A stretch of 11,419 nucleotides of DNA. Origin: Chloroflexota bacterium. GTDB taxonomy: Bacteria > Chloroflexota > Limnocylindria > Limnocylindrales > CSP1-4. The translations under genes were made by a program, and so were the position numbers. The notes under the pieces are model-generated. The model was not told the origin of the DNA, did no database searches, and was given only the letters and a program-made list of their open reading frames with translations. Below, piece after piece: positions 1 to 10,341 of the stretch (the first letter of the stretch is position 1; every line of letters begins with the position of its first letter). Location: the NCBI GenBank assembly GCA_021777365.1, contig JAJYDP010000102.1:1-11419 (forward strand), in the 5' to 3' direction.

Positions 1-34
1 CCAGCAGCGTCTCGGTAGGCAGGTTCGCGATCAT
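1..34 (-). CDS. Start of next gene after the portal (partial, runs off left edge)
   Basis: Only 11 codons are visible, reading M-I-A-N-L-P-T-E-T-L-L before the window ends. The ATG overlaps the TGA stop of the portal gene in an ATGA arrangement, the coupling used elsewhere in this cluster. In many tailed phages the gene after the portal encodes a capsid maturation protease or minor head protein, but eleven residues cannot support any assignment. No strong Shine-Dalgarno is seen, so translation is probably coupled to the portal. Confidence 0.5.
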   Translation of the reverse strand, partial: MIANLPTETLL

Positions 35-2907
35 GCCAGCGTCGCGATGTCGATACCGCGCGCCGTCAGCTCAGCGTCGAGCAGCGCCAGTAGGTCGGGG
101 GTTGCGGCCTTTGTCTCGACGAACGGTTCGCCCTGACCGGGCGAACGCGAACCAGTCACCTCGGCCACCTGACAATCGCCGCACAACCCGACCGCCGCCT
201 CGCTGATCGGCACGTCGGGCGATCCCAGCAGCGGCGTCCCGCAGCGCCGACAGCGCGTCGGGTGCGGGGCCTCGGCGTTGGGGGCCGCGCCCTCAAGGTC
301 GAACGGAGCCAGTCCGGACGCGACCGGGGACGACACGGCGAAGTCCTTGTCGAGTGACTGACGCGCTGCCTTGTGGGCCTGCTCGACCGTCATGCCCGAG
401 AGGTCCCGCCCCGCGAGGATCGAGGCGGAGGTGAGGAACGCCCGGTCGGCGTCGTGGATCGCCGCGTCGCCCGCGAACAGCTCGACCTGCTCCGGGGTCA
501 GGGCCGAGGGGACGAACTTCGTCACGTCGCGCCCGGCCTTGGCGTAGCGCCGCAGCACCGCCAGCTCCGCGAGCTGGGCCTTCCCGCTGACCGACGCGGA
601 CTCGTCCTGCATCGAGCCCCGGATGCGGTCGCGGTACTCGTCCGGCACGTTCGTCCCGACGAACGCGGGCACGTCCTTCCAGCCCGCCTTGTCGGCCGCG
701 CCCGTGCGGTGGTAGCCGTCCGCCACCGTCAGCCCGGCGCGGTTGTAGACGCCCTTCGACGCGAACTCGACGGTCACGATGGGGTCCATCGTGGCCCCGC
801 GCGCCAGCGAGTCCGCGATCTCCGCCTCCTTCTCGGGGTTGCGTCCGCCCGGCCGCCGCCTCCAGTTGATGTCGTCGAGCTTGACGTGCGGCTCCATCCG
901 CCAGTCGATGCGGTCGTCGGCCGCCCACTTCACCTGATCCTCGGGGTACGAGCGCAGCAGGTAGCCGTGGATCGTGCTGGGGAGCTTCTTGCCCTTGTAG
1001 CGGATGCGCCACTTCACCACGTCCGCCAGCGAGAGCTTGCCCGCCGTCGACCCCGCGTCTGACGGTGACGGCGTAGGACCGTCGCCCTGCGTGCCCTCGC
1101 CGTCGGGTGGGGTGACAGACCGCTCCGGGGGCTTCGACGGCGCTACGGCCGGTTCTCGGGTCGCTGGCGCAGTCCCGGCGGGCGCCCCCGAGGGGGCGTT
1201 CGGCTCCGCGTCGCTGCCGCCCGCCGGGGCGCCGGGGACCGTGCCGCCGGGGGCGATGGGGGCGGGCGCCGTGACCTCCGGGTCGAGCGGGATGATGCCG
1301 GTCCCCATCACGTAGATCGGGGTGCTGGTGAGCGGCAGGCCCCACGGGTCGCCGCCGTTGTCGACGATGACCTGATCGATGGTCTTCTGGCCGTGGCTGA
1401 TCTGGCTGGCCTCGGCCGCGGCCTTCTTCTCCGCGTCCTCCTGCTCCTCGAACTCGACCCACTTCCATTCGAGGTCCGGCTGCGCGAACCCCTGCTGGAT
1501 CAGCGCGTCGAACCGCTGCTTCCACACCTTGCGGTCGGGGCGGGTGCGCTGGCGCACCGTGGCGTCCATCATCTCCTGCGAGGCGGACGAGCCGCCCAGC
1601 CCGGAGGTGCGCCCGCCCGGCATCTGGCCGATCTCCTGCGGCATGACGTGGAGCACCGGGTACAGGTACTCGATGATCGAGAGGTCCACGTCCTTGCTGA
1701 ACGCGAGGTCCTTCTGCGGCAGCGCCTTGCTGTCCGGCGGCAGGACGATGACGCGGTGCTTCCACGCCACGTCGCCCGCCAGCGCGTTGAGGCTGTTCTG
1801 GAGCTGGAGCTGCTGCGTGGCGGTCGCGTAGGCCGGGCCGGCCACTACGAACACGCCGGGGATGGTGCCCTCGCTCCAATAGTCGTTCAGCCACACCTGC
1901 CGCTGGAGCCCGATCACGATGGGCAGCAGCGAGGCGGCCACGGGCGACAGGCCGTAGGGCGTGTTCGTCCACGGCGTCTGGCGCCAGTAGTGGAGCTGGT
2001 CCATGCGGTACTCGCCGTCGGGGTCCGCGTCGTCGAGGTTGGTGGGGAGCCCGCCCGCCTCCATCAGCGCGTCCGCCTCGTCGGCGTCGCCCACCGCCAG
2101 CACCTGCATCATGTCCACGCGGGGCACGCCCCACAGGTACTGCTGGAACGCCACGGCGGGCGGCAGCGGCAGCGCGCCGCGCTCGTCCACGAGCGGGCGG
2201 ATGGTCGCCGCGTCCAGCAGCTCCCAGTGCGCCAGCCCGCTCCCGAACAGCCCCTTGCCCGGTACCCGCGTGGGGAGCGGGTGGACGGCCACCGCGTCCA
2301 TCACGAACTGGTCCCACAGCGCCGCGGTGAACCAGCTCTGGAACCCGTCGGTGTAGTTCGGGTCGATGTGCCAGCGGAACCAGTCGGCCACCTGCTTCGC
2401 GCGACCGGCCTGATCCTTCGCCATGCCCTTGTCGGACTTGGCGATCTGCTGCGCGTCCCGCGTCGGCCCCACGTCCCAGTCCAGCCCGACCAGCTCCCGC
2501 ACGCGCACGTCGAGCATGCCCCACAGGGTCGAGTACCGCTGGGCCAGCGAGCGCAGGGTCTGGAACGCGGCCAGCGTCAGGCCCTCGCTGCCGGGCTGCC
2601 CGATGGGGAGGTTCCAGCCCACGGGGTACTGCCAGCGCCGCGGGGCGGGGCGGCCCGAGCCGCCCTCGGCGGGCTGGTCGAGCGGCATGGGCAGGATGGG
2701 CATGAAGGGGCCGAACGCCCCGGAGAGGAACGTATCCCACGGCCGCGGCAGGGCCGGGCCGACGGGGCGCCCGCTGACCCAGCCGGAGTAGCCGGAGTAC
2801 GGCTGCATCCCGGCGGGCGCGGTCCAGCCCATCAGCCCCGGGTCGGGCTGCGACTGCTGCTGCTTCTCGATGGCCCGCAGGCGCGCGATGGCGAGCGGAT
2901 CAGCCAA
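31..2907 (-). CDS. Phage portal protein fused to a ParB-like domain and a C-terminal zinc ribbon
   Basis: The portal is the dodecameric ring at the head vertex through which DNA is packaged. Residues about 95-545 look like an actinophage-type portal: the NTPYGLSPVAASLLPIV stretch at 315-331, the IVLPP turn at 387-391, and VMPQEIG followed by a Gly/Ser-rich GGRTSGLGGSS segment at 421-441. A Pro/Ala/Gly linker covers about 545-620. Residues about 670-770 resemble the ParB/sulfiredoxin-like fold, with DPIVTVEF at 708-715 and VADGYHRTGAADKAGW at 728-743. A C-x2-C pair at 886/889 and another at 909/912 make a zinc ribbon. At 958 aa it is about twice the size of a plain portal. The start is TTG: an in-frame TGA lies directly before it, the next in-frame ATG is codon 26, and GAGGAGG lies 4 bases upstream. 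The portal call is strong, ParB-like good, and the role of the fusion unknown. Confidence 0.88.
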   Translation of the reverse strand: MADPLAIARLRAIEKQQQSQPDPGLMGWTAPAGMQPYSGYSGWVSGRPVGPALPRPWDTFLSGAFGPFMPILPMPLDQPAEGGSGRPAPRRWQYPVGWNLPIGQPGSEGLTLAAFQTLRSLAQRYSTLWGMLDVRVRELVGLDWDVGPTRDAQQIAKSDKGMAKDQAGRAKQVADWFRWHIDPNYTDGFQSWFTAALWDQFVMDAVAVHPLPTRVPGKGLFGSGLAHWELLDAATIRPLVDERGALPLPPAVAFQQYLWGVPRVDMMQVLAVGDADEADALMEAGGLPTNLDDADPDGEYRMDQLHYWRQTPWTNTPYGLSPVAASLLPIVIGLQRQVWLNDYWSEGTIPGVFVVAGPAYATATQQLQLQNSLNALAGDVAWKHRVIVLPPDSKALPQKDLAFSKDVDLSIIEYLYPVLHVMPQEIGQMPGGRTSGLGGSSASQEMMDATVRQRTRPDRKVWKQRFDALIQQGFAQPDLEWKWVEFEEQEDAEKKAAAEASQISHGQKTIDQVIVDNGGDPWGLPLTSTPIYVMGTGIIPLDPEVTAPAPIAPGGTVPGAPAGGSDAEPNAPSGAPAGTAPATREPAVAPSKPPERSVTPPDGEGTQGDGPTPSPSDAGSTAGKLSLADVVKWRIRYKGKKLPSTIHGYLLRSYPEDQVKWAADDRIDWRMEPHVKLDDINWRRRPGGRNPEKEAEIADSLARGATMDPIVTVEFASKGVYNRAGLTVADGYHRTGAADKAGWKDVPAFVGTNVPDEYRDRIRGSMQDESASVSGKAQLAELAVLRRYAKAGRDVTKFVPSALTPEQVELFAGDAAIHDADRAFLTSASILAGRDLSGMTVEQAHKAARQSLDKDFAVSSPVASGLAPFDLEGAAPNAEAPHPTRCRRCGTPLLGSPDVPISEAAVGLCGDCQVAEVTGSRSPGQGEPFVETKAATPDLLALLDAELTARGIDIATLA

Positions 2908-2916
2908 TCATCCTCC

Positions 2917-3462
2917 TCAGCCCACGATCACCCTGAGGTCGCGCGGCGCGTCGTCGCGCTCCTTCGCGAGGGCATCGGCCTGTGCGGCTACGTAGTCCTC
3001 CGGCCAGATCACGTCGGAGGCGTCCCAGTGCTCCCAGAACTCCACCGCGGTCGGGGTCGTCCCGTCCGGGCGGAAGCGGATCGAGCGCAGCCGCGGGCAG
3101 GCGCGCTCGTGGATCCCGCCGCACCAGCTGCACCGCAGGGCGAGCTGGGCGGCGCGCTCCTCGTCGGTCAGCAGGGCCAGCCGCCGCCTGCGCTCGTCCG
3201 CGGCGTCCGCCCGCAGCCGCAGGGACGCCAGCTCGTCGAGGGCCGCCCGCCGCTCGCGGTCGGAGACCTCCAGCGCGGCCTGCGCCCCCTCCACCGCCAG
3301 CCGCGCCTGCGTCACCGCCCCCTCCAGCGCCGACGCGCGGCGGGCCTCGGCGGTCGCCGCGTCGAGGCTGGTCCGCAGCCGCTGCGCCGCCGTCGCGCTG
3401 GCGATCCAGAGCGCGGCCAGCGCGAGGCAGGCCGCCCCCAGCAGCACGACCGGCAGGCTCAC
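2917..3462 (-). CDS. Membrane-anchored coiled-coil protein with zinc knuckle
   Basis: This 181-aa protein has one hydrophobic helix at residues 4-21 and a long charged, Ala/Arg/Glu-rich helix at about 25-95 that should form a coiled coil. A C-x2-C-x3-H-x3-C cluster follows at 111-122, and then an RSIRFRPDG...EFWE...VIWPEDY segment. The zinc cluster plus the 'basic-strand, WPED' tail recalls short hypothetical proteins in actinobacteriophages; that is recall, not a search. The GTG start overlaps the preceding stop by 4 bases (GTGA), and a longer reading to 3618 would overlap the upstream gene heavily. The stop is 9 bases before the portal TTG, so it is probably co-translated with the portal. 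Function unknown; the topology suggests a membrane-tethered, metal-binding accessory protein. Confidence 0.72.
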   Translation of the reverse strand: MSLPVVLLGAACLALAALWIASATAAQRLRTSLDAATAEARRASALEGAVTQARLAVEGAQAALEVSDRERRAALDELASLRLRADAADERRRRLALLTDEERAAQLALRCSWCGGIHERACPRLRSIRFRPDGTTPTAVEFWEHWDASDVIWPEDYVAAQADALAKERDDAPRDLRVIVG

Positions 3463-3665
3463 CGCACCGACCGCCGCATGTGCGCCCGCGCCGCGTCGGT
3501 CAGGGGTCGCTCGCGGACCGTCCGCGAGATCGCGCCGTCGAGGTGGCGCCGCGCGTGCCAGCTCTGGAGCGGGCCGGGGTCGGGGAGCTTGGGATGGCTC
3601 CCCAGCGGCAGGCCGCACTCGCAGTAGGCGGGGTCGGCCGCCGTCAGCATCTCCGGTCGGTTCAC
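3459..3665 (-). CDS. Small Cys/His protein, possibly zinc-binding
   Basis: A 68-aa hypothetical protein. An N-terminal CECGLPLGSHP motif (Cys15, Cys17, His24) and later His37 and His41 could hold a metal ion. The C-terminal half is basic. I chose the GTG at 3665 because it forms a GTGA overlap with the upstream stop at 3662, as several neighbours do. The alternative is the ATG at 3650 (63 aa), but there a GGAG sequence directly abuts the start with no spacing, which is poor for initiation. The stop overlaps the GTG of the next gene. No family recognised beyond resemblance to small CxCGLP-type phage proteins. Confidence 0.6.
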   Translation of the reverse strand: MNRPEMLTAADPAYCECGLPLGSHPKLPDPGPLQSWHARRHLDGAISRTVRERPLTDAARAHMRRSVR

Positions 3666-3886
3666 GGCACGAGGAGCCGCGAGCGAATCGAGGTGCCGGG
3701 ACGGTTCGCCGCGCACTGCGCGCGTACCGGGCCGAGCAGGACTGCCGCGAGGTCGGCCAGCTCCTCGGCCGTCGCGTCGCGCGGCAGGCTCACGTCCGCG
3801 AACCGTCCCGACGACAGGGGGATGCGGAGCGGCATGCGCGCGGCCGAGGCGGCCTGCGCGGCGATGGCGGCGGCGATCCCGTCCAT
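3662..3886 (-). CDS. Small hypothetical protein with strand-turn-helix segment
   Basis: A 74-aa protein with an Ala-rich helical N-terminus, followed by RIPLSSGRFADVSLPRD (residues 21-37) and then an acidic helix TAEELADLAAVL. A short strand pair running into a helix is a common pattern in small phage proteins that presumably fold as tiny accessory domains. I do not recognise a named family. The ATG shares one base with the preceding TGA (TGATG), a tight translational-coupling arrangement, and its own stop overlaps the next gene by 4 bases. The first 16 residues are low in complexity. The coupling on both sides supports a real gene. Confidence 0.6.
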   Translation of the reverse strand: MDGIAAAIAAQAASAARMPLRIPLSSGRFADVSLPRDATAEELADLAAVLLGPVRAQCAANRPGTSIRSRLLVP

Positions 3887-4116
3887 CAGTCGCGCCCCCG
3901 CTGGCTGAAGAAGAAGTGGGCGAACAGCAGCCCGACGACCAGACCGGTCAGGACGCCCGTGTCGGGGTCGGCCCAGTACAGTGCCCGCACCCGCGCGCTG
4001 ATGGTGGGCCGGCCGTTGGCGATGAAGTATGCCTCCAGACCGATCCACGCCAGCACCGTCAGGACGAACAGGACGACGACCGAGCGGTTCCCGGCGTCGT
4101 CGAGCTGCTGCGTCAC
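3886..4116 (-). CDS. Two-helix small membrane protein
   Basis: A 76-aa protein with two hydrophobic helices (about 12-32 and 54-71), joined by a loop containing NGRPTISARVRALYWADPDTG and ending in a short positive tail SQRGRD. The size and two-helix layout fit small phage membrane proteins, including some holins, but no family-specific feature is visible. The helix-loop pattern with TIS followed by a basic/aromatic stretch resembles a class of actinophage hypothetical membrane proteins from memory. The start is GTG in a GTGA overlap with the stop of the 278-aa gene; the longer reading to 4533 lies almost wholly inside that gene and was rejected. It could be a holin candidate given the lysin two genes upstream. 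Confidence 0.65.
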   Translation of the reverse strand: MTQQLDDAGNRSVVVLFVLTVLAWIGLEAYFIANGRPTISARVRALYWADPDTGVLTGLVVGLLFAHFFFSQRGRD

Positions 4117-4949
4117 GACGGGTACGCGCCCGGCTGGTAGACGATGGGGCCCCAGACCCTCGCGAACTCGGCCTTCCACGCCCACGTCGGGGTCGGCTGC
4201 GCGGCCACCTTCGCCGACTCCAGCGCTGCCTGCACCTCCGGGCAGCCGACCACGTAGACGCCCTCGCTGTGGACGAGCGCGGGCAGGAACGTGGCCGGGT
4301 CGAGCGTGCGGTACGCGCCGAGCCCGGTGTTGGTACCCGCCAGCTCGACGCGGTTGATCTCGGCCTGACAGGCCGTGATCGCGGGCAGCACCGGCTGGCC
4401 GTTGATCTCGCCGCCGTCCTGCAGCGCGAGCATCCCGTTGAGGTCGGGCCGCTGCACCGCGTTGGTCAGGGCCAGCAGGCGCGCGTACAGCTGGTTCTGG
4501 TAGTCGGGGTTGCCGATCATGTCGCACATCCACCGTGCGCCCTCGGCCACGAAGGACACCACGATGGCGCTTTCGTCCACCAGCACGGCGTACTCGTTGA
4601 CCGAGAGCGCCAGATCCGGACCGGCATCCTGCGGGATCGCGATGGCCGCGTCGAAGTCCGCCGGGAACGAGCCCGCGAACGCCGCCACCCTCGGCGCGGG
4701 CGCCTGCACGGCGGATGCCTCGATGTAGACGGGCGGCTTGGTCGTGGTGCGCCAGTAGGTCCCGGTCAGGTCCCCGGTGAGCTGGTCGATCTGGTCGAAG
4801 GCGAGGATGGCCGGACCGATCGATCCGTCGCCGGACGGGCCGCCGTGCGTGATCGGGGTCCCGTCGAGCGTCCAGCGGGGCGTGTGCGCCGGGACGTGCT
4901 CCGTGGTGCCGGGCGGCAGGCTGGTCGAGCTGGTGATCTGGACCGTCAT
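4113..4949 (-). CDS. Unrecognised 278-aa protein downstream of the lysin
   Basis: I do not recognise a family. The protein is neutral to acidic, has no signal peptide or membrane helix, and has a mixed strand/helix look. The N-terminal 80 residues are Thr/Pro/Gly-rich (MTVQITSSTSLPPG), followed by alternating hydrophobic strands such as AVLVDESAIVVSFVAEGARW (121-140). A helical region spans about 150-205, and there are three isolated cysteines (142, 194, 236). The strand-rich start fits a virion or secreted structural protein better than a DNA-binding one, but this is weak inference. The start is well supported: ATG with AGGAGG six bases upstream. It sits between the peptidoglycan hydrolase and a two-helix membrane protein. 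Confidence 0.72.
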   Translation of the reverse strand: MTVQITSSTSLPPGTTEHVPAHTPRWTLDGTPITHGGPSGDGSIGPAILAFDQIDQLTGDLTGTYWRTTTKPPVYIEASAVQAPAPRVAAFAGSFPADFDAAIAIPQDAGPDLALSVNEYAVLVDESAIVVSFVAEGARWMCDMIGNPDYQNQLYARLLALTNAVQRPDLNGMLALQDGGEINGQPVLPAITACQAEINRVELAGTNTGLGAYRTLDPATFLPALVHSEGVYVVGCPEVQAALESAKVAAQPTPTWAWKAEFARVWGPIVYQPGAYPS

Positions 4950-4955
4950 GGTCGG

Positions 4956-4961
4956 CCTCCT
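4956..4961 (-). promoter_or_regulatory. Consensus Shine-Dalgarno AGGAGG for the 278-aa gene
   Basis: A full AGGAGG with six bases to the ATG at 4949 is among the best ribosome binding sites in the window. It lies in the 13-base gap after the lysin stop. The 278-aa protein therefore probably initiates independently rather than only by coupling, which suggests a need for high yield. Confidence 0.7.
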
Positions 4962-4962
4962 G

Positions 4963-6534
4963 TCAGGGCTGCGGTGGGGTGACGTTGGTCGGCTGCTGCA
5001 CGGGCTGGATCAGCCCCGCCAGCCAGTTCAGGAGCGCGGGCAGGTCGTTCCCGGCCCGGCCGCGGATGCCGTTGAGGGCGGCCATGAACAGCACGACCGC
5101 GAGCACGCCGCCCTGATGCAGCGTGAACTGGCTCCCTGCCACCGGCAGGTACGGCGCGAGGTTCACCACCGCGACGCCCTCGGCCGCCCCGACCGCCGCG
5201 TCCTGCAGGAACTTCGCGAGCGGCGCAGGCAGCCAGTTCAGGATCGTGATGACCGGCGCAGGCGTCGGGGTCGGCGAGGGGACCGGCACCACGATGCCGC
5301 CGCGGAGCGTCAGGTCGGACAGGTTCATGATCGCCATCATGCCCTTGACGCCGCCGTGGTCGATCACGACCGCGCGCTGCGTCGGGCTGGTCGCGCCGGG
5401 GCTGTAGATGCCGATCGAGGGCGGGTAGTAGTCCAGCTTGGTGAGCGGCGTGACGCCGTCGAGCGCGTAGATCTGCGCGCCGAGCGGCGCGTCGTAGTAG
5501 CCCGGCGTCCCGGTGAGTGTGACCACCTGATCCTCCGTGGCTGGCACGGCGCAGAGCACCGTCTGGTTGCCGGACAGGCCGTAGGCGTACGCCTGCACCA
5601 CGTCGTCGGGCCACGTCTCGCCCCTGTAGCCCTGCGCGGGGTCGCCCAGCGGGTCCATGACGAAGAACCCGTCGGCGTCGTGGTAGGCGAACACGGCGTG
5701 GCCGCCCGTGAACGTGGGGTCCCAGCGGTCGTAGGGGGCGGGCACCGCGCCGTAGAGCCCTTGGATGACCATGCCGCCCGTGAGGCCCTGCAGCTGCGCG
5801 AACGTCGGCGGGCTCGCGTACAGGCAGCCGATGTCGATGCCATAGGTCAGCTTGACCCACGCCGCGGCCGTGGCGAGGTCCGTGGCGCCCCTGCCCGGCG
5901 TGCCGCCGCCCGTGGCCGGGATGCCCTCGCCGTTGGTGACCGTGGCGCCGTGGGTCATCCAGTCCACCAGCATGCCCACCGAGCGGCGGGTACAGTCGTC
6001 CCACGGGGCGGGCTCGTCGCGCTCGGTCTGGAAGGCGGGCAGGTAGTTCGACTGCAGCGCCGCCGACTGCGCGGCGCTGATGATGTCGTCGACGTACCGC
6101 GTGACGCGCGGGGTCACCGTCGGCGATCCGGACAGCCAGTAGCCAGCCATCGTGGTGAGGGTGGCCGCCCAACCGTACGTGCGGTACTGCCCCATCAGGT
6201 ACAGGTACGCCTGCAGGCCGTGGGTCCAGTCGGGGTACTGGACGTACGTGTAGCCGTTGCCGGGCGCGTACGGCGTGCCGCCGAACTGGGCGGTCCACGA
6301 CGCCCACAGGTTGTTGCCCCAGTTGTGGGTGGTGACCGCGTAGCCCTTCGTGCCGTAGCTCGACTCGGCCGCGAACTGCCCGAGCGCGACGGCGGGGTCC
6401 ATCCCCGCCGCCACCACCAGCGCGTACAGCGCCGCGGCATTCGGCGCGACGGGCGAGGCGGAGAGCGCGGCCGTCCACTCCGCGAGGGTGATCGTGGGCG
6501 GCCCGAACACCGGGCTCGTCCCCGAGAGGGTCAT
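4963..6534 (-). CDS. Multidomain peptidoglycan hydrolase (glucosaminidase-like + C39-like peptidase) with hydrophobic holin-like tail
   Basis: 523 aa. Residues about 35-155 resemble a GH73/lysozyme-like glucosaminidase: QFAAESSYGTKGYA with Glu57 as candidate acid, then NWGNNLW, then a YPDWTHGLQAYLYLM helix. Residues about 170-320 look like a C39/papain-like cysteine peptidase: Cys181 in DDCTRRSVGML, His279 in GGHAVFAYH, Asp294 in FVMDPLG. Residues about 332-412 are strand-rich and could be a wall-binding module. A Pro/Thr hinge (417-428) leads to an amphipathic and hydrophobic segment (about 436-505, including GGVLAVVLFMAAL) resembling an r1t-type small holin in layout. The likely role is host wall cleavage, either at lysis or carried on the virion. 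The ATG overlaps the upstream peptidase stop (ATGA); a longer start at 6834 would overlap that gene by 300 bases. The domain calls come from motifs only. Confidence 0.8.
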   Translation of the reverse strand: MTLSGTSPVFGPPTITLAEWTAALSASPVAPNAAALYALVVAAGMDPAVALGQFAAESSYGTKGYAVTTHNWGNNLWASWTAQFGGTPYAPGNGYTYVQYPDWTHGLQAYLYLMGQYRTYGWAATLTTMAGYWLSGSPTVTPRVTRYVDDIISAAQSAALQSNYLPAFQTERDEPAPWDDCTRRSVGMLVDWMTHGATVTNGEGIPATGGGTPGRGATDLATAAAWVKLTYGIDIGCLYASPPTFAQLQGLTGGMVIQGLYGAVPAPYDRWDPTFTGGHAVFAYHDADGFFVMDPLGDPAQGYRGETWPDDVVQAYAYGLSGNQTVLCAVPATEDQVVTLTGTPGYYDAPLGAQIYALDGVTPLTKLDYYPPSIGIYSPGATSPTQRAVVIDHGGVKGMMAIMNLSDLTLRGGIVVPVPSPTPTPAPVITILNWLPAPLAKFLQDAAVGAAEGVAVVNLAPYLPVAGSQFTLHQGGVLAVVLFMAALNGIRGRAGNDLPALLNWLAGLIQPVQQPTNVTPPQP

Positions 6535-7346
6535 CGGTGCACCCTCCGCAGGAACCCCTGCAGGCATCCCAGCGCGCGGGCGACGTATCCCGGCGGCTGC
6601 GGCAGCATCGGCCGCCCGGTCAGGGCGAGGAAGTCGGCCTTGAGGGCGGCGAGCGTCAGCTCCTCCTCGAACGCCCGAGTGCCGAGGTGTTCCGGCCAGA
6701 TGACGACCCATGCCTCGTCGAGCTGGTGCTCGACGAAGGCGTCCGTGACGTCGGTGACCGCGCCCCACGTCACGACCCCCGTGCGGTCGGGCGACTCGGA
6801 GTACCGTCCGCACATCACGGCGTGACCGCCCCACTCGGCGCTGGAGCGGTAGTCCCAGAGCTTCTGGCGCTGCTGCGCCACGTCGAGGTTCACGCCCACC
6901 AGCAGCGAGCCGAAGATCGCCACCGCGGCCCGCATCTCGTCGAGGCTGGTGTGGTCGACCGCGGCGAACGCGACCGGCCTCACCCCGTCGATCCCGCCCT
7001 CCAGCAGCGCCTCCAGCATGACCTGCAGCACCACGCCGCCGTCGTCGCTCCCGGTGGCCGGATCGAACCCCGGGTTGCCGCTGCGGCGGTAGAGGTCGAA
7101 GATGGCCGCCTCCGACACGACCTGCGGCCTGCCCGTCAGGTAGGTCGAGACGAGCAGTCGGTCATTGGCGACCGACACCGGCCCGCAGTCGCTGTAGCGG
7201 TCGTTGCCGCCGAGGATCCACGACGGAACCCTCGCGAGGTGGTCGGCCGAGGACGGCGCGGTGGGGATCGCCCGCAGGTACGTCCCGAGGCGCAGCCTCG
7301 GGCGGTCGGGGATGGGCGGTCGCCGCCCCAGCTTGCGCTCAGTCAC
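6531..7346 (-). CDS. Papain/C39-like cysteine peptidase superfamily protein
   Basis: 271 aa. Cys54 in GNDRYSDCGPVSVAN has the nucleophile context of C39/papain-like peptidases. His175 in EWGGHAVMCGRY is the likely catalytic base, followed by VVTWGAVTDVT where the third polar residue normally falls. The closing EAWVVIWPEHL strand resembles a set of actinophage proteins with this fold, from memory. There is no signal peptide or membrane helix, and residues 222-271 form a helical basic tail. The start is GTG, with GAGGTGAGG just upstream and an 8-base gap after the PLD-like gene. It is coupled by ATGA to the larger lysin, so the two are probably made together. It could be a peptidoglycan endopeptidase, a virion-associated enzyme or an inactive relative. 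Confidence 0.75.
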   Translation of the reverse strand: MTERKLGRRPPIPDRPRLRLGTYLRAIPTAPSSADHLARVPSWILGGNDRYSDCGPVSVANDRLLVSTYLTGRPQVVSEAAIFDLYRRSGNPGFDPATGSDDGGVVLQVMLEALLEGGIDGVRPVAFAAVDHTSLDEMRAAVAIFGSLLVGVNLDVAQQRQKLWDYRSSAEWGGHAVMCGRYSESPDRTGVVTWGAVTDVTDAFVEHQLDEAWVVIWPEHLGTRAFEEELTLAALKADFLALTGRPMLPQPPGYVARALGCLQGFLRRVHR

Positions 7347-7354
7347 GCCTCACC

Positions 7355-7858
7355 TCACTGCGTGGGACTCTGGGACGGCTGCACCTGCCACTCGGGATGC
7401 TTGCCCGCCGCGTCGTCATGCACCTGCTGCCAGTTGGTCAGGAACGCGGAGACGAGTCCGGCGTCGCTGCGGACGCTGAAGGTGTTGTCCTGCGCCTCGG
7501 CGCTGGCTGAGAAGTTGAACGAGCCGAAGCCGACCACGTTGGTGTCCACGACGACGTACTTGCTGTGGTCGATGGCGCCGCGGCTGCTGGTCCCCACCAG
7601 CACCGCGATCCCGGCGTCCACCAGCCGCTGCAGCTGCGGCTTCTCCGCGCGGCCCTCGGCCTGCGTGTGGTCGGCCACGATGTTGACGGTCACGCCGCGC
7701 TGGTGCGCCGCGATCAGGGCGTCCATCAGCGGGGGGTAGGTCAGCCCATATATGTCGATGTGGATGGACCGGAGGGCGCCGTTCACCAGCCCCACCAGCG
7801 CCGTCGGCACGTCGTCGTAGGGCGCGAAGTAGGTGGCGTCGGTGATGGTCACCGGCAC
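7355..7858 (-). CDS. Single-domain phospholipase D superfamily (HKD) protein
   Basis: 167 aa with a complete HKD motif: His98-x-Lys100-x4-Asp105-x6-Gly112-Ser-x-Asn115, read in IDHSKYVVVD and GFGSFNFS. The N-terminal half has the expected strand-helix pattern (SIHIDIYGLT, then GVTVNIVADHTQAEG at 55-69). Family members with one HKD usually act as dimers and include Nuc-type endonucleases, restriction nucleases and phosphatidyl-transfer enzymes. No signal peptide is visible, so a cytoplasmic role such as DNA or lipid cleavage is most likely. The last 15 residues are Gln/Ser/Pro-rich. Start chosen: GTG at 7858, seven bases after GGAGGG. A GTG at 7852 would give a GTGA overlap but sits too far from that site. 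It lies immediately upstream of the two wall-hydrolase genes. Confidence 0.85.
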   Translation of the reverse strand: MPVTITDATYFAPYDDVPTALVGLVNGALRSIHIDIYGLTYPPLMDALIAAHQRGVTVNIVADHTQAEGRAEKPQLQRLVDAGIAVLVGTSSRGAIDHSKYVVVDTNVVGFGSFNFSASAEAQDNTFSVRSDAGLVSAFLTNWQQVHDDAAGKHPEWQVQPSQSPTQ

Positions 7859-8025
7859 GGCTCGGCCCTCCGCTCGACGACCGTCCCGGTCGGGGTGAGG
7901 AACGTCAGCGTCCCCCGGTAGGCCCGGTGGAAGTGACAGACCGGGTGGCCGCCGCGAAGCACGCTGGCCGGCCGGCCGCAGCGGCGCAGGCTCCCCACTC
8001 GGCCGATGCGGACGTCGCAGGTCAC
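7849..8025 (-). CDS. Small zinc-binding-type protein
   Basis: 58 aa. Cys3, Cys16 (in RRCGRPA), Cys30 and His31/His33 (in GHPVCHFHRAYRG) fit a compact treble-clef or zinc-ribbon unit, followed by a two-strand tail (TLTFLTPTGTVVERR). Proteins with 'CGRPA...HPVCxxH' are common small hypotheticals in phages; I cannot name this one. The GTG start overlaps the membrane-protein stop by 4 bases (GTGA), which fixes the start better than the much longer reading to 8412. Its end overlaps the start of the PLD-like gene. The role could be DNA- or protein-binding. Confidence 0.6.
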   Translation of the reverse strand: MTCDVRIGRVGSLRRCGRPASVLRGGHPVCHFHRAYRGTLTFLTPTGTVVERRAEPCR

Positions 8026-8330
8026 GTCCAGCCCCGCCACCACTGCCACAGCCAGTGCGCCTGCGGCAGGCTGATCAGGATGAACACCAGCACGGCGGTG
8101 CCGAATAGGTCGCCCTCCGGCATCCGCAGGCGCAGCAGCCGCGACGCCGCGAGCATCGCCACTGCGCTCGCCGCCACCGTCAGCAGTATCCCGGCCAGCA
8201 GCCGTGAGCGCAGCGCCACATTGCGCCGGTCGAGCCGCCAGATGGTCCACTGGAGGTAGGTGGCCCGGATGTCCACTGCCCACAACACGATCAGGACGAC
8301 CGATGCGGCGTCGAGTGAGTCGATGCTCAG
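8022..8330 (-). CDS. Three-helix membrane protein with probable CTG start
   Basis: 102 aa if begun at CTG 8330. Hydrophobic helices lie at about 9-27, 43-63 and 77-95, with a basic loop WRLDRRNVALRSR between the first two. An in-frame TGA lies at 8355-8357, and no ATG, GTG or TTG occurs between it and the GTG at 8288. That GTG would delete half of helix 1 and has no Shine-Dalgarno. The CTG forms a CTGA overlap with the upstream stop and has GGGAGG seven bases before it. The encoded N-terminus, SIDSLDAASVVLIVLWA, reads as a natural start into a helix. Holin-like topology is possible but nothing specific supports it. The protein is certain as an open frame; the start is inferred. Confidence 0.65.
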   Translation of the reverse strand: MSIDSLDAASVVLIVLWAVDIRATYLQWTIWRLDRRNVALRSRLLAGILLTVAASAVAMLAASRLLRLRMPEGDLFGTAVLVFILISLPQAHWLWQWWRGWT

Positions 8331-8554
8331 TGATGCGCCTCCCGCTGTACCTGCTCAGCCCGCCGATAGGAGGCGAGCACCCGCTCCGAGCGCCGGCTGG
8401 TAGCGATGGCATGCGCCGCTGCGAGAGTCGCGTCCGCTACCGTCTGCTCGGAGGCGACGCGCGCCTCGATGGCTCGCCGGCGTCGCTGCTCTGCCGCATC
8501 CTGGTCGGCGTGCAGCGCCTCAGCGATGCGCCCCATGGGAACCCATTTGGCCAT
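8327..8554 (-). CDS. Small helical, possibly coiled-coil protein
   Basis: 75 aa, almost entirely helical and rich in Ala, Arg and Glu (residues about 10-72, with AEQRRRRAIEARVASEQ). It has no membrane helix and no cysteine. The ATG at 8554 is preferred: it has GGAGGTGG about 8-10 bases upstream and lies 22 bases after the preceding TAG. A GTG at 8587 would also be in frame but would overlap the upstream gene and bypass this ribosome site. Composition suggests a coiled-coil scaffold or accessory protein. Function unknown. Its stop overlaps the inferred CTG start of the three-helix membrane protein. Confidence 0.6.
   Translation of the reverse strand: MAKWVPMGRIAEALHADQDAAEQRRRRAIEARVASEQTVADATLAAAHAIATSRRSERVLASYRRAEQVQREAHH
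8338..8343 (-). promoter_or_regulatory. Shine-Dalgarno GGGAGG placing a CTG start at 8330
   Basis: GGGAGG lies seven bases before CTG 8330 and inside the end of the upstream coding sequence. The spacing is ideal for the CTG and far too long (49 bases) for the alternative GTG at 8288. This is the main evidence for CTG initiation of the three-helix membrane protein. Confidence 0.5.
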
Positions 8555-9497: not shown

Positions 9498-9607
9498 CTC
9501 TGCACCTGCCGGGGGCCGTGGCCCTCGCGCTGCCAGTGGGCGAGCAGATCCACGCGGCGCTGGAACCCGGCCCCGCACTCGATGCAGACGTACCGCGGCG
9601 GGGTCAC
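9494..9607 (-). CDS. 37-aa single C2H2 zinc-finger protein
   Basis: The whole protein is essentially one finger: YVCIECGAGFQRRVDLLAHW with Cys8, Cys11, His24 and then His30, a C-x2-C-x12-H-x5-H pattern with aromatic and leucine residues in canonical positions. Single-finger proteins of this kind can bind DNA or protein, and their use in phages is poorly understood. The GTG start overlaps the stop of the DUF5658-like gene (GTGA). The short length makes it easy to miss in automated calling, but the intact motif and coupling argue for a real gene. Confidence 0.7.
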   Translation of the reverse strand: MTPPRYVCIECGAGFQRRVDLLAHWQREGHGPRQVQS

Positions 9608-9948
9608 CACCCGAGCAGCCCCGCCGTGTTGGTCGCGGCCCCGACGATGCCCGCCAGCGCGACCATCAGCAGTCCGACCCGGCCCCAGCCGCGCTCGGCC
9701 GCGGGGCGCCGCAGGTACAGCCAGAGCAGCCCCAGCGCGAGCAGCGCCACACCGCCCTTCGCCAGCAGCAGGCCGAGCGGGCCGTCCTGCGCGTAGACCG
9801 CCGCCATCAGCGGGTTGCCCTCATGCCCCGCAGTCGCGAAGCGGAAGGCGAGCAGCGCCGTGGCAAGGTCGAGCCCCTGCCCGACCAACGCCAGCCCGAC
9901 GGCGTACCACAGGCCGTCGAACGCGCGGACACGCGGGTACGCCGTCAC
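9604..9948 (-). CDS. DUF5658-like three-helix membrane protein
   Basis: 114 aa with hydrophobic helices at about 12-37, 56-79 and 90-112. The first helix runs into GLDLATALLAF, and the loop GHEGNPLM (41-48) is the kind of 'D-x-x-T ... E-x-NP' signature that I associate with DUF5658-type membrane proteins. Their function is unknown. The start is GTG in a GTGA overlap with the preceding small ORF. Small membrane proteins of this shape recur in actinophages, where roles in lysis or superinfection control have been proposed for similar genes but are not established here. Confidence 0.68.
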   Translation of the reverse strand: MTAYPRVRAFDGLWYAVGLALVGQGLDLATALLAFRFATAGHEGNPLMAAVYAQDGPLGLLLAKGGVALLALGLLWLYLRRPAAERGWGRVGLLMVALAGIVGAATNTAGLLGW

Positions 9949-10136
9949 AGCTTTCCTCGGATTGCACTCGTAGACCGTGTGCCACGGCTAGTGGTGGAGC
10001 CCGGCGGCAGCACGATGATCTTATGCTCGTAACCGATACCGCAAGCGATGGCATTCAAGCGGTTCTGCAGCTGCTGTTGCGCAGACAGCCCGGCAGCACC
10101 CGCAGGATGAGGATTCCGGCACAGCACACGTCTCAT
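9945..10136 (-). CDS. Portal-like fragment, 63-aa ORF
   Basis: Residues 12-49 resemble an internal part of the portal at 31-2907 (its residues about 356-395): both contain a QQ-LQLQN/QQLQN-LNA run followed by H-x-x-IVLPP-x-S. By eye about half of the positions match across some 40 residues. The frame begins at ATG 10136, sharing one base with the upstream stop (TGATG), and ends overlapping the next GTG, so it looks expressed or at least retained. A full portal is about 450 aa or more, so this is only a fragment: a degraded portal copy, a recombination scar, or a piece reused as a small protein. Local GC is clearly lower than in neighbours, which suggests import from another phage. Confidence 0.55.
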   Translation of the reverse strand: MRRVLCRNPHPAGAAGLSAQQQLQNRLNAIACGIGYEHKIIVLPPGSTTSRGTRSTSAIRGKL

Positions 10137-10321
10137 CAGAGTAATCCCAACCACGCCATGATGGCGGCGAAAATGCCGACAAACCCCCCGAGGATAGCGA
10201 AGCCGCCCGTCCTCGCACCGAGCGGCAACGACAAGTCCGCCACCACACCGACGACAAACGGAATGACGGCAGCGGCAACGATCAGGGCCGCGCGTGTCAG
10301 ACGGTACAGGTCGCGGCTCAC
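10136..10321 (-). CDS. Two-helix small membrane protein
   Basis: 61 aa with two hydrophobic helices at about 10-27 and 37-61, joined by a short loop DLSLPLGARTGG. The protein ends in the membrane with almost no tail. The size and two-helix layout fit a small holin or antiholin, but no specific motif is present. The GTG start has GAGGGAG five bases upstream and overlaps a tiny frame that joins it to the previous gene. It lies in the same lower-GC patch as the portal-like fragment, so the two may have arrived together. Confidence 0.6.
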   Translation of the reverse strand: MSRDLYRLTRAALIVAAAVIPFVVGVVADLSLPLGARTGGFAILGGFVGIFAAIMAWLGLL

Positions 10322-10341
10322 CGCGTCTCCCTCATTCTCAT
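10318..10341 (-). other. Seven-codon bridging minicistron
   Basis: The frame M-R-M-R-E-T-R begins by an ATGA overlap with the stop of the 42-aa gene and ends by a GTGA overlap with the 61-aa gene. It carries the GAGGGAG ribosome site of the latter. It may simply pass ribosomes between two genes, and chance cannot be excluded. Confidence 0.25.

Follow-up and report, generated by a model that had tools for sequence, protein, structure and literature searches.

Within an 11,419-nucleotide stretch of a Chloroflexota bacterium (positions 1 to 11,419 of contig JAJYDP010000102.1, assembly GCA_021777365.1; hereafter called the window), a small open reading frame (ORF) of 63 aa on the minus strand (9945..10136) resembles part of the 958-aa portal protein that is encoded on the same strand (31..2907), about 7 kb away. 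Why should a piece of a portal stand as a gene of its own? A sequence-only reading of the window had seen in it either a relic of a second portal brought in by recombination, or a fragment kept as a microprotein that could interfere with portal assembly, for example to poison a competing phage. Here we ask what the piece is, where it came from and what it could do.

Results

A coupled ORF with homology to the portal

The ORF starts with ATG at 10136 and its stop ends at 9945; an alternative upstream GTG at 10154 would give 69 aa. The frame is coupled at both ends, as had been read from the sequence: it has its own start and stop, and overlaps the upstream 61-aa ORF by one base (TGATG) and the downstream 114-aa ORF by four (GTGA). 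The window holds 79 ORFs of at least 40 aa at 72% GC, many of which are surely spurious, and an open frame alone means little at that composition.

The likeness to the portal, earlier put at about half of the aligned positions by eye, was borne out by alignment. In a tblastn search of the window with its own portal, residues 356–393 aligned with positions 9996..10103 (minus strand), 20 of 38 residues being identical (52.6%, E = 7.9e-6). The BLOSUM62 local score between portal and ORF was 89, whereas shuffling the ORF 5,000 times never gave that value (mean 30.1, s.d. 4.2, maximum 62), and the portal-segment profile matched the ORF at E = 1.5e-12. Together with a DNA match to portals at E = 1.5e-7, these values led us to reject a chance likeness. 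They also bear on the idea that the ORF is a convergent strand-helix-strand protein, non-homologous to portals. Weak look-alikes do exist (L006, L137), and some loci have, immediately upstream of the portal, small strand-helix-strand proteins of a different family, but in view of the profile and DNA matches we find convergence scarcely credible. Members of that family (REC..V.PGE.LVIR...) were seen on the plus strand of L017 (6545–6889), L018 (4569–4937) and L123 (7806–8159); that of L017 stops shortly before the frame of the portal.

Judged by its sequence, the 63-aa ORF is homologous to the portal clip. Searches that set the ORF against known portals agreed only in part: the portal-segment profile recognized it, but the ORF alone hit no family in Pfam, PHROGs and PADLOC (E up to 1) or in NCBIfam, and the portal profiles PF04860 and PHROG 2662 did not match it (E up to 1). 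It thus takes a profile built from this portal clade to see the match. The anti-phage defence profiles of PADLOC-DB matched neither the ORF nor the 61-aa protein (E up to 1).

The matched segment is the clip

The portal segment matched by the ORF is the clip domain, the docking place of terminase and adaptor. In the structure model of the window's portal, residues 348–398 (1714..1866, minus strand), which we used as the clip model, form a strand-helix-strand between long helices. Their alignment to the clip of phage 812 (PMC12886913) places the K of VLPPGSK on Lys334, and matches to solved portals also back the assignment. According to three further reports, the clip binds the terminase first and the adaptor afterwards (PMC7296036, PMC9958956, PMC10359639). 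Residues 686–854 of the window's portal form a C-terminal ParB-like stretch (phrog_8071, E = 0.0026; phrog_723, E = 0.0029; TIGR00180, E = 0.098, below its cut-off).

The clip model matched the ORF at E = 1.2e-11, with model positions 19–48 on ORF residues 20–49. Since the model was cut by hand to 51 positions, similar match ends arise partly by construction, and the independent fact is that models of the flanking portal segments do not match. Common to the ORF and the portal clip are the helix and the second strand, including LQ..LN and HKIIVLPPGS. The first strand is missing from the ORF, the match beginning only at position 19, and three positions that are invariant among portals are changed (G378 to C, D379 to G, P397 to R). 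Its two cysteines are arranged unlike a CxxC pair, and its structure model is poor (pLDDT 62, pTM 0.36, helix only). Compared with the clip in its portal (phrog_2662, PF04860 clade), the ORF lacks wing, stem and crown and is a separate gene 7 kb away.

Portals of other phages are closer than the window's own

A scan of viral contigs with the ORF gave 139 matched stretches, 35 of them confirmed; all 35 lie in open frames of 566–1778 aa and match the portal-segment profile. Among 102 distinct portal segments the window's own portal ranks only seventh against the ORF, the best protein match scoring 98 (L018) versus 89, and the best DNA matches among those listed are to portals of other, uncultured phages, with 76.6% identity over 77 bases for the top match (the E value of 1.5e-7 given above). 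Because six other segments score higher, a copy of the phage's own portal is not favored. For other free copies of the module, described below, the portal of the same locus ranks 21st (L031), 65th (L115) and 43rd (L113) of the 102 segments. A protein search with the ORF alone gave nothing useful, the whole ORF being without close relatives.

That a complete second portal gene once stood at this place and left the ORF as its relic is very improbable. In favor of such a relic, the ORF resembles a segment from the interior of the portal, but a portal-wide tblastn over the window gave no other convincing portal piece in any frame, only low-complexity matches. Of 16 overlapping portal windows (see below), only the clip window, residues 353–402, matched a small ORF here, and the stretch that carries the ORF is only 409 bp long and holds another gene as well. 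With no other portal piece nearby, we reject the view of the ORF as a decayed second portal, and this part of the sequence-only reading finds no support. A longer portal at the same locus was sought in G001, the sole relative seen, and none was found there.

The ORF lies in a 409-bp stretch that is absent from the nearest genome

G001 is the nearest genome and the only relative compared at this locus. Blastn blocks between the window and its contig C78 have 71–91% identity; one block ends at 10337 and another restarts at 9927, and in G001 the two are 4 bases apart. The stretch absent from the homologous locus (9928..10336, minus strand; 409 bp) holds nearly all of both small ORFs, and its last bases run into the next gene. 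With 409 bp in the window and 4 bases in G001, the 61-aa and 63-aa ORFs were either gained here or lost there.

Composition helps to decide between the two. The GC content is 59.9% in the 63-aa ORF (59, 58 and 62% at the three codon positions; GC3 62.5%) and 64.0% in the 61-aa ORF (GC3 77.4%), as against 72.0% for the window. GC3 reaches 89–96% in the larger genes of the window (those for the portal, the PLD protein and the proteins of 278, 623, 271 and 114 aa), and some smaller neighbour genes also go down to 68–81%. The composition of the two small ORFs, unlike that of the larger genes, favors gain over loss. A foreign origin of the 63-aa ORF is probable, and to this extent the earlier reading is supported.

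These observations can also be read as those of an inert relic, in which a piece of a foreign portal arrived with the 61-aa gene by illegitimate recombination into a variable slot for small genes, its frame staying open by chance at high GC. The low GC and flat codon-position composition of the 63-aa ORF, the absence of relatives of the whole ORF and of the stretch in G001, the poor structure model and the commonness of open frames in the window all fit that account. Against it, the ORF carries precisely the module that is found on its own in other places, its translational couplings are intact at both ends, and GC3 is 75–81% in the two central blocks of 16 codons, where the module lies, but 44–50% in the outer blocks. 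Given its composition, its lack of relatives, the missing first strand and the poor model, the inert relic is a close rival for the window's copy, and we regard it as quite possible.

The 61-aa protein (10136..10321, minus strand) is hydrophobic, resembles NCBIfam SLATT_1 weakly (E = 0.0011; 19 bits versus a cut-off of 41), overlaps the 63-aa ORF by the one base of TGATG, and may form a two-gene cassette with it. On the other side lies a 114-aa DUF5658 membrane protein (9604..9948, minus strand; PF18902, 27.8 bits versus a cut-off of 25.2), which is present in G001 with 84% identity. Upstream of this region, G001 carries a gene for a large terminase (L059, 14145–15734; phrog_2, E = 7.9e-30). 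Across 107 genomes of the family the 61-aa protein had no match, the 114-aa protein matched only G001, and the 63-aa ORF was weakly matched twice, by frames 458 and 122 aa long. Nothing useful came from viral scans with the neighbours of 114, 61 and 148 aa, and the cultured-phage collection gave only chance-level matches to the insert DNA and the 61-aa protein. Between the 63-aa ORF and the portal gene, the window also encodes, at 6531–7858 on the minus strand, a PLD-like protein (PF13091, E = 5.9e-16) and a protein matching phrog_19005 (E = 1.9e-17).

The module occurs in small proteins outside portals

Two profile searches (matches of 33–107 aa and 50–156 aa) yielded 42 distinct small proteins. 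The clip model and neither flanking portal model matched 29 of them, several of which come from contigs of about 1 kb and are possibly incomplete; 12 were portal pieces by the flank models, and P0025 was excluded on inspection by eye as probably belonging to a portal. The 63-aa ORF belongs with this module-only class, as defined here, in that it matches the clip model and carries no flanking portal segment. Nine of the 29 start at model position 10 or later, so the first strand does not define the class.

Several groups could be told apart among the 29. Seven proteins are zinc-ribbon-like (P0007, P0009, P0010, P0011, P0031, P0035, P0036), a call that rests on CxxC pairs seen by eye, with Pfam matches below cut-off. 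Like the 63-aa ORF, they carry a clip module and lack the remainder of a portal; they differ from it in having an N-terminal CxxC-pair ribbon and a complete module; lacking such a pair, the ORF falls outside their family. Four small proteins are alike over most of their length (P0002, P0008, P0013, P0016), and P0033, P0034 and P0038 form a family of 116 aa. In P0015, P0018 and P0032 the module is joined to a second portal stretch, near residues 494–530 (E = 1e-12, 5e-9 and 8e-7, respectively), and in P0041 the module and part of that stretch stand N-terminal to an epimerase domain. Of ten proteins scanned against NCBIfam, the eight module-only ones, the 63-aa ORF included, stayed below every curated cut-off. 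P0002 showed a weak match to the portal PHROG (E = 0.0094), and a plasmid search with it gave nothing useful. No record of the cultured-phage collection matched the 63-aa ORF, P0002, P0010, P0024, P0034 or P0015, and a further viral scan with P0034 returned its own contig only.

Within the zinc-ribbon-like family the mean pairwise identity is 59% for the module, 52% for the ribbon and 10% for the linker; in the P0033/P0034/P0038 family it is 65% for the module, 67% for the N-terminal part and 82% for the C-terminal part. As far as such identities can tell, the module appears to be kept by selection, a view best supported for the zinc-ribbon-like family; the Fisher values attached to this comparison take no account of how the proteins are related. 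In a comparison of 47 portals with 32 module-only rows (the 29 proteins, the 63-aa ORF, L188 and L113), positions that are invariant in portals relax outside them, N374 from 100 to 41%, D379 from 100 to 63% and P397 from 100 to at most 32%, and L389 and P390 stay at 96–100% in both sets. The second P of VLPP rises from 49% in portals to 91% outside, a figure that should be interpreted with some caution since the collection of portals and small proteins relied in part on VLPPG-containing patterns and profiles, which biases the conservation of that motif.

Free and grafted copies in viral loci

Two of the scans covered the best 80 of 124 and the best 80 of 93 confirmed loci, respectively. Among 168 sources with a portal (some contigs being represented more than once), three clear free copies stand beside portals (in the window, L031 and L115), so the free module is recurrent but rare in these loci. 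Where the context is known, free copies sit in the head and packaging region. In L031 the module is a 33-aa ORF (P0019, the same protein being found on eight contigs) whose stop codon shares one base with the start of the portal gene. Like the 63-aa ORF, it is a short helix-plus-strand module (model positions 20–44) with TGATG coupling; unlike it, it directly precedes the portal, and its residues differ. The portal of L031 is followed by a protein, encoded at 3042–6044 on the plus strand, that combines head-morphogenesis matches with an Alt-like ADP-ribosyltransferase match. L115 has a 116-aa module protein 1.1 kb past the portal, and L187 has one about 0.9 kb past the large terminase. The large terminase of L187 (2350–5157, plus strand) is interrupted by a LAGLIDADG-type insert, probably an intein. 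A weak case lies about 0.8 kb past the portal of L113 (one profile gave E = 4e-5, the clip model 7e-5); neither profile A2 nor the small-ORF search with 16 windows matched it.

That search served as a control. Sixteen overlapping 50-residue windows of the portal (residues 103–527) were compared with 41,057 different small ORFs drawn from 212 sources, at E < 1e-3. The clip window, 353–402, matched six ORFs (in L188, L187, L115, the window, L031 and L211), the most of any. Seven windows matched only L016, a portal cut by the contig end, and five matched nothing; the overlapping windows 328–377 and 378–427 gave weak matches to L211 and L188, respectively, and 478–527 matched one L188 ORF. L187, L188 and L211 had been fetched by module searches, and the unbiased cases are therefore the window, L031 and L115. 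In 400 genomes of the phylum, module profile A3 gave one weak match, L211, and a profile search of genome contigs gave one weak locus.

In L188 the module lies in frame inside a sugar C-methyltransferase, with Methyltransf_13 at residues 5–58, the module at 92–136 and Methyltransf_23 from 138. When aligned with enzymes of solved structure, the first block reaches residue 85 or 89 (101 or 104 of the solved chain) and the next starts at 137 (chain 107), leaving 47–51 residues where the solved enzymes have 2–5. The same locus encodes a 220-aa protein (7696–8358, plus strand) with the second portal stretch alone (SIDEiR..L.L.PWGLPeTS; E = 1.3e-21), and profile A2 found no portal on the contig. Such an insert between two domains, its 83% DNA identity to portals over 72–76 bases, and the N-terminal graft on the epimerase P0041 are what one would expect of a mobile peptide-coding module that spreads in frame among phage genes and is tolerated without selection for docking. 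The conservation of the module within the zinc-ribbon-like family speaks against this account, as does the fact that no transfer machinery was seen, and we consider it unlikely.

Discussion

Our preferred reading, which we hold tentatively and as a whole, is that the 63-aa ORF is a clip module captured from the portal of a foreign phage and acting as a docking mimic or decoy, its soluble product imitating the docking face that the portal turns outward. In its favor are the identity of the segment as the clip, the foreign source, the recurrence of the module without portal flanks, its conservation in the zinc-ribbon-like family, the relaxation outside portals of positions invariant within them while VLPP is retained, the excess of small-ORF matches to the clip window over other portal windows, and the head and packaging context. 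The free module would bind the partners of the clip, first the large terminase motor and later the head-tail adaptor, or it might join the clip ring; in either case it would be a competitor during packaging and the building of the neck, and its target might be a co-infecting phage that has a portal of this type. A protein that carries the module as a graft would be tethered by it to the same site. The sequence-only reading is sustained in part, in the homology to the portal, a probable foreign origin, and a fragment that has its own start, stop and couplings. It could not show that other phages carry the same module free or grafted. Interference with portal assembly may occur, but terminase and adaptor, which the clip is known to bind, would be targets no less likely.

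Several findings count against docking. The window's copy has no close relative, a deviant composition, no first strand and a poor model; free copies are rare, and in the P0033/P0034/P0038 family the module is no more conserved than the rest. Moreover, the grafts on sugar enzymes do not obviously fit a role in packaging, which leaves some room for the tolerated insert.

The reuse of virion-protein domains is known, and we rate the free or grafted clip module as a variant of such reuse. Our literature search, mostly outside subscription journals, recognized no paper on free portal clip modules. Satellite proteins that divert head assembly in a helper phage, such as one of PLE (PMC10945586), offer a parallel in the idea of how they work, as small proteins that act on the head of another phage; the PLE protein is described as remodelling the capsid, not as a portal piece.

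As a broader proposal, which we think rather unlikely to hold in its full extent, the portal clip would be a portable docking tag that some uncultured tailed phages use loose or grafted (on zinc ribbons, sugar enzymes and others) as a means of getting to the portal vertex, or to the motor and adaptor that partner it. The phage of the window would have acquired its module from a foreign portal lineage; with the adjoining gene for a small membrane protein it would form a cassette of two genes, possibly directed at competing phages. Clip modules outside portals would demonstrate that a portal domain can pass from protein to protein as one unit, and the contacts of the clip during packaging would become testable with small natural ligands. 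Loose clip modules would supply probes, and perhaps natural inhibitors, of the hand-over from motor to adaptor.
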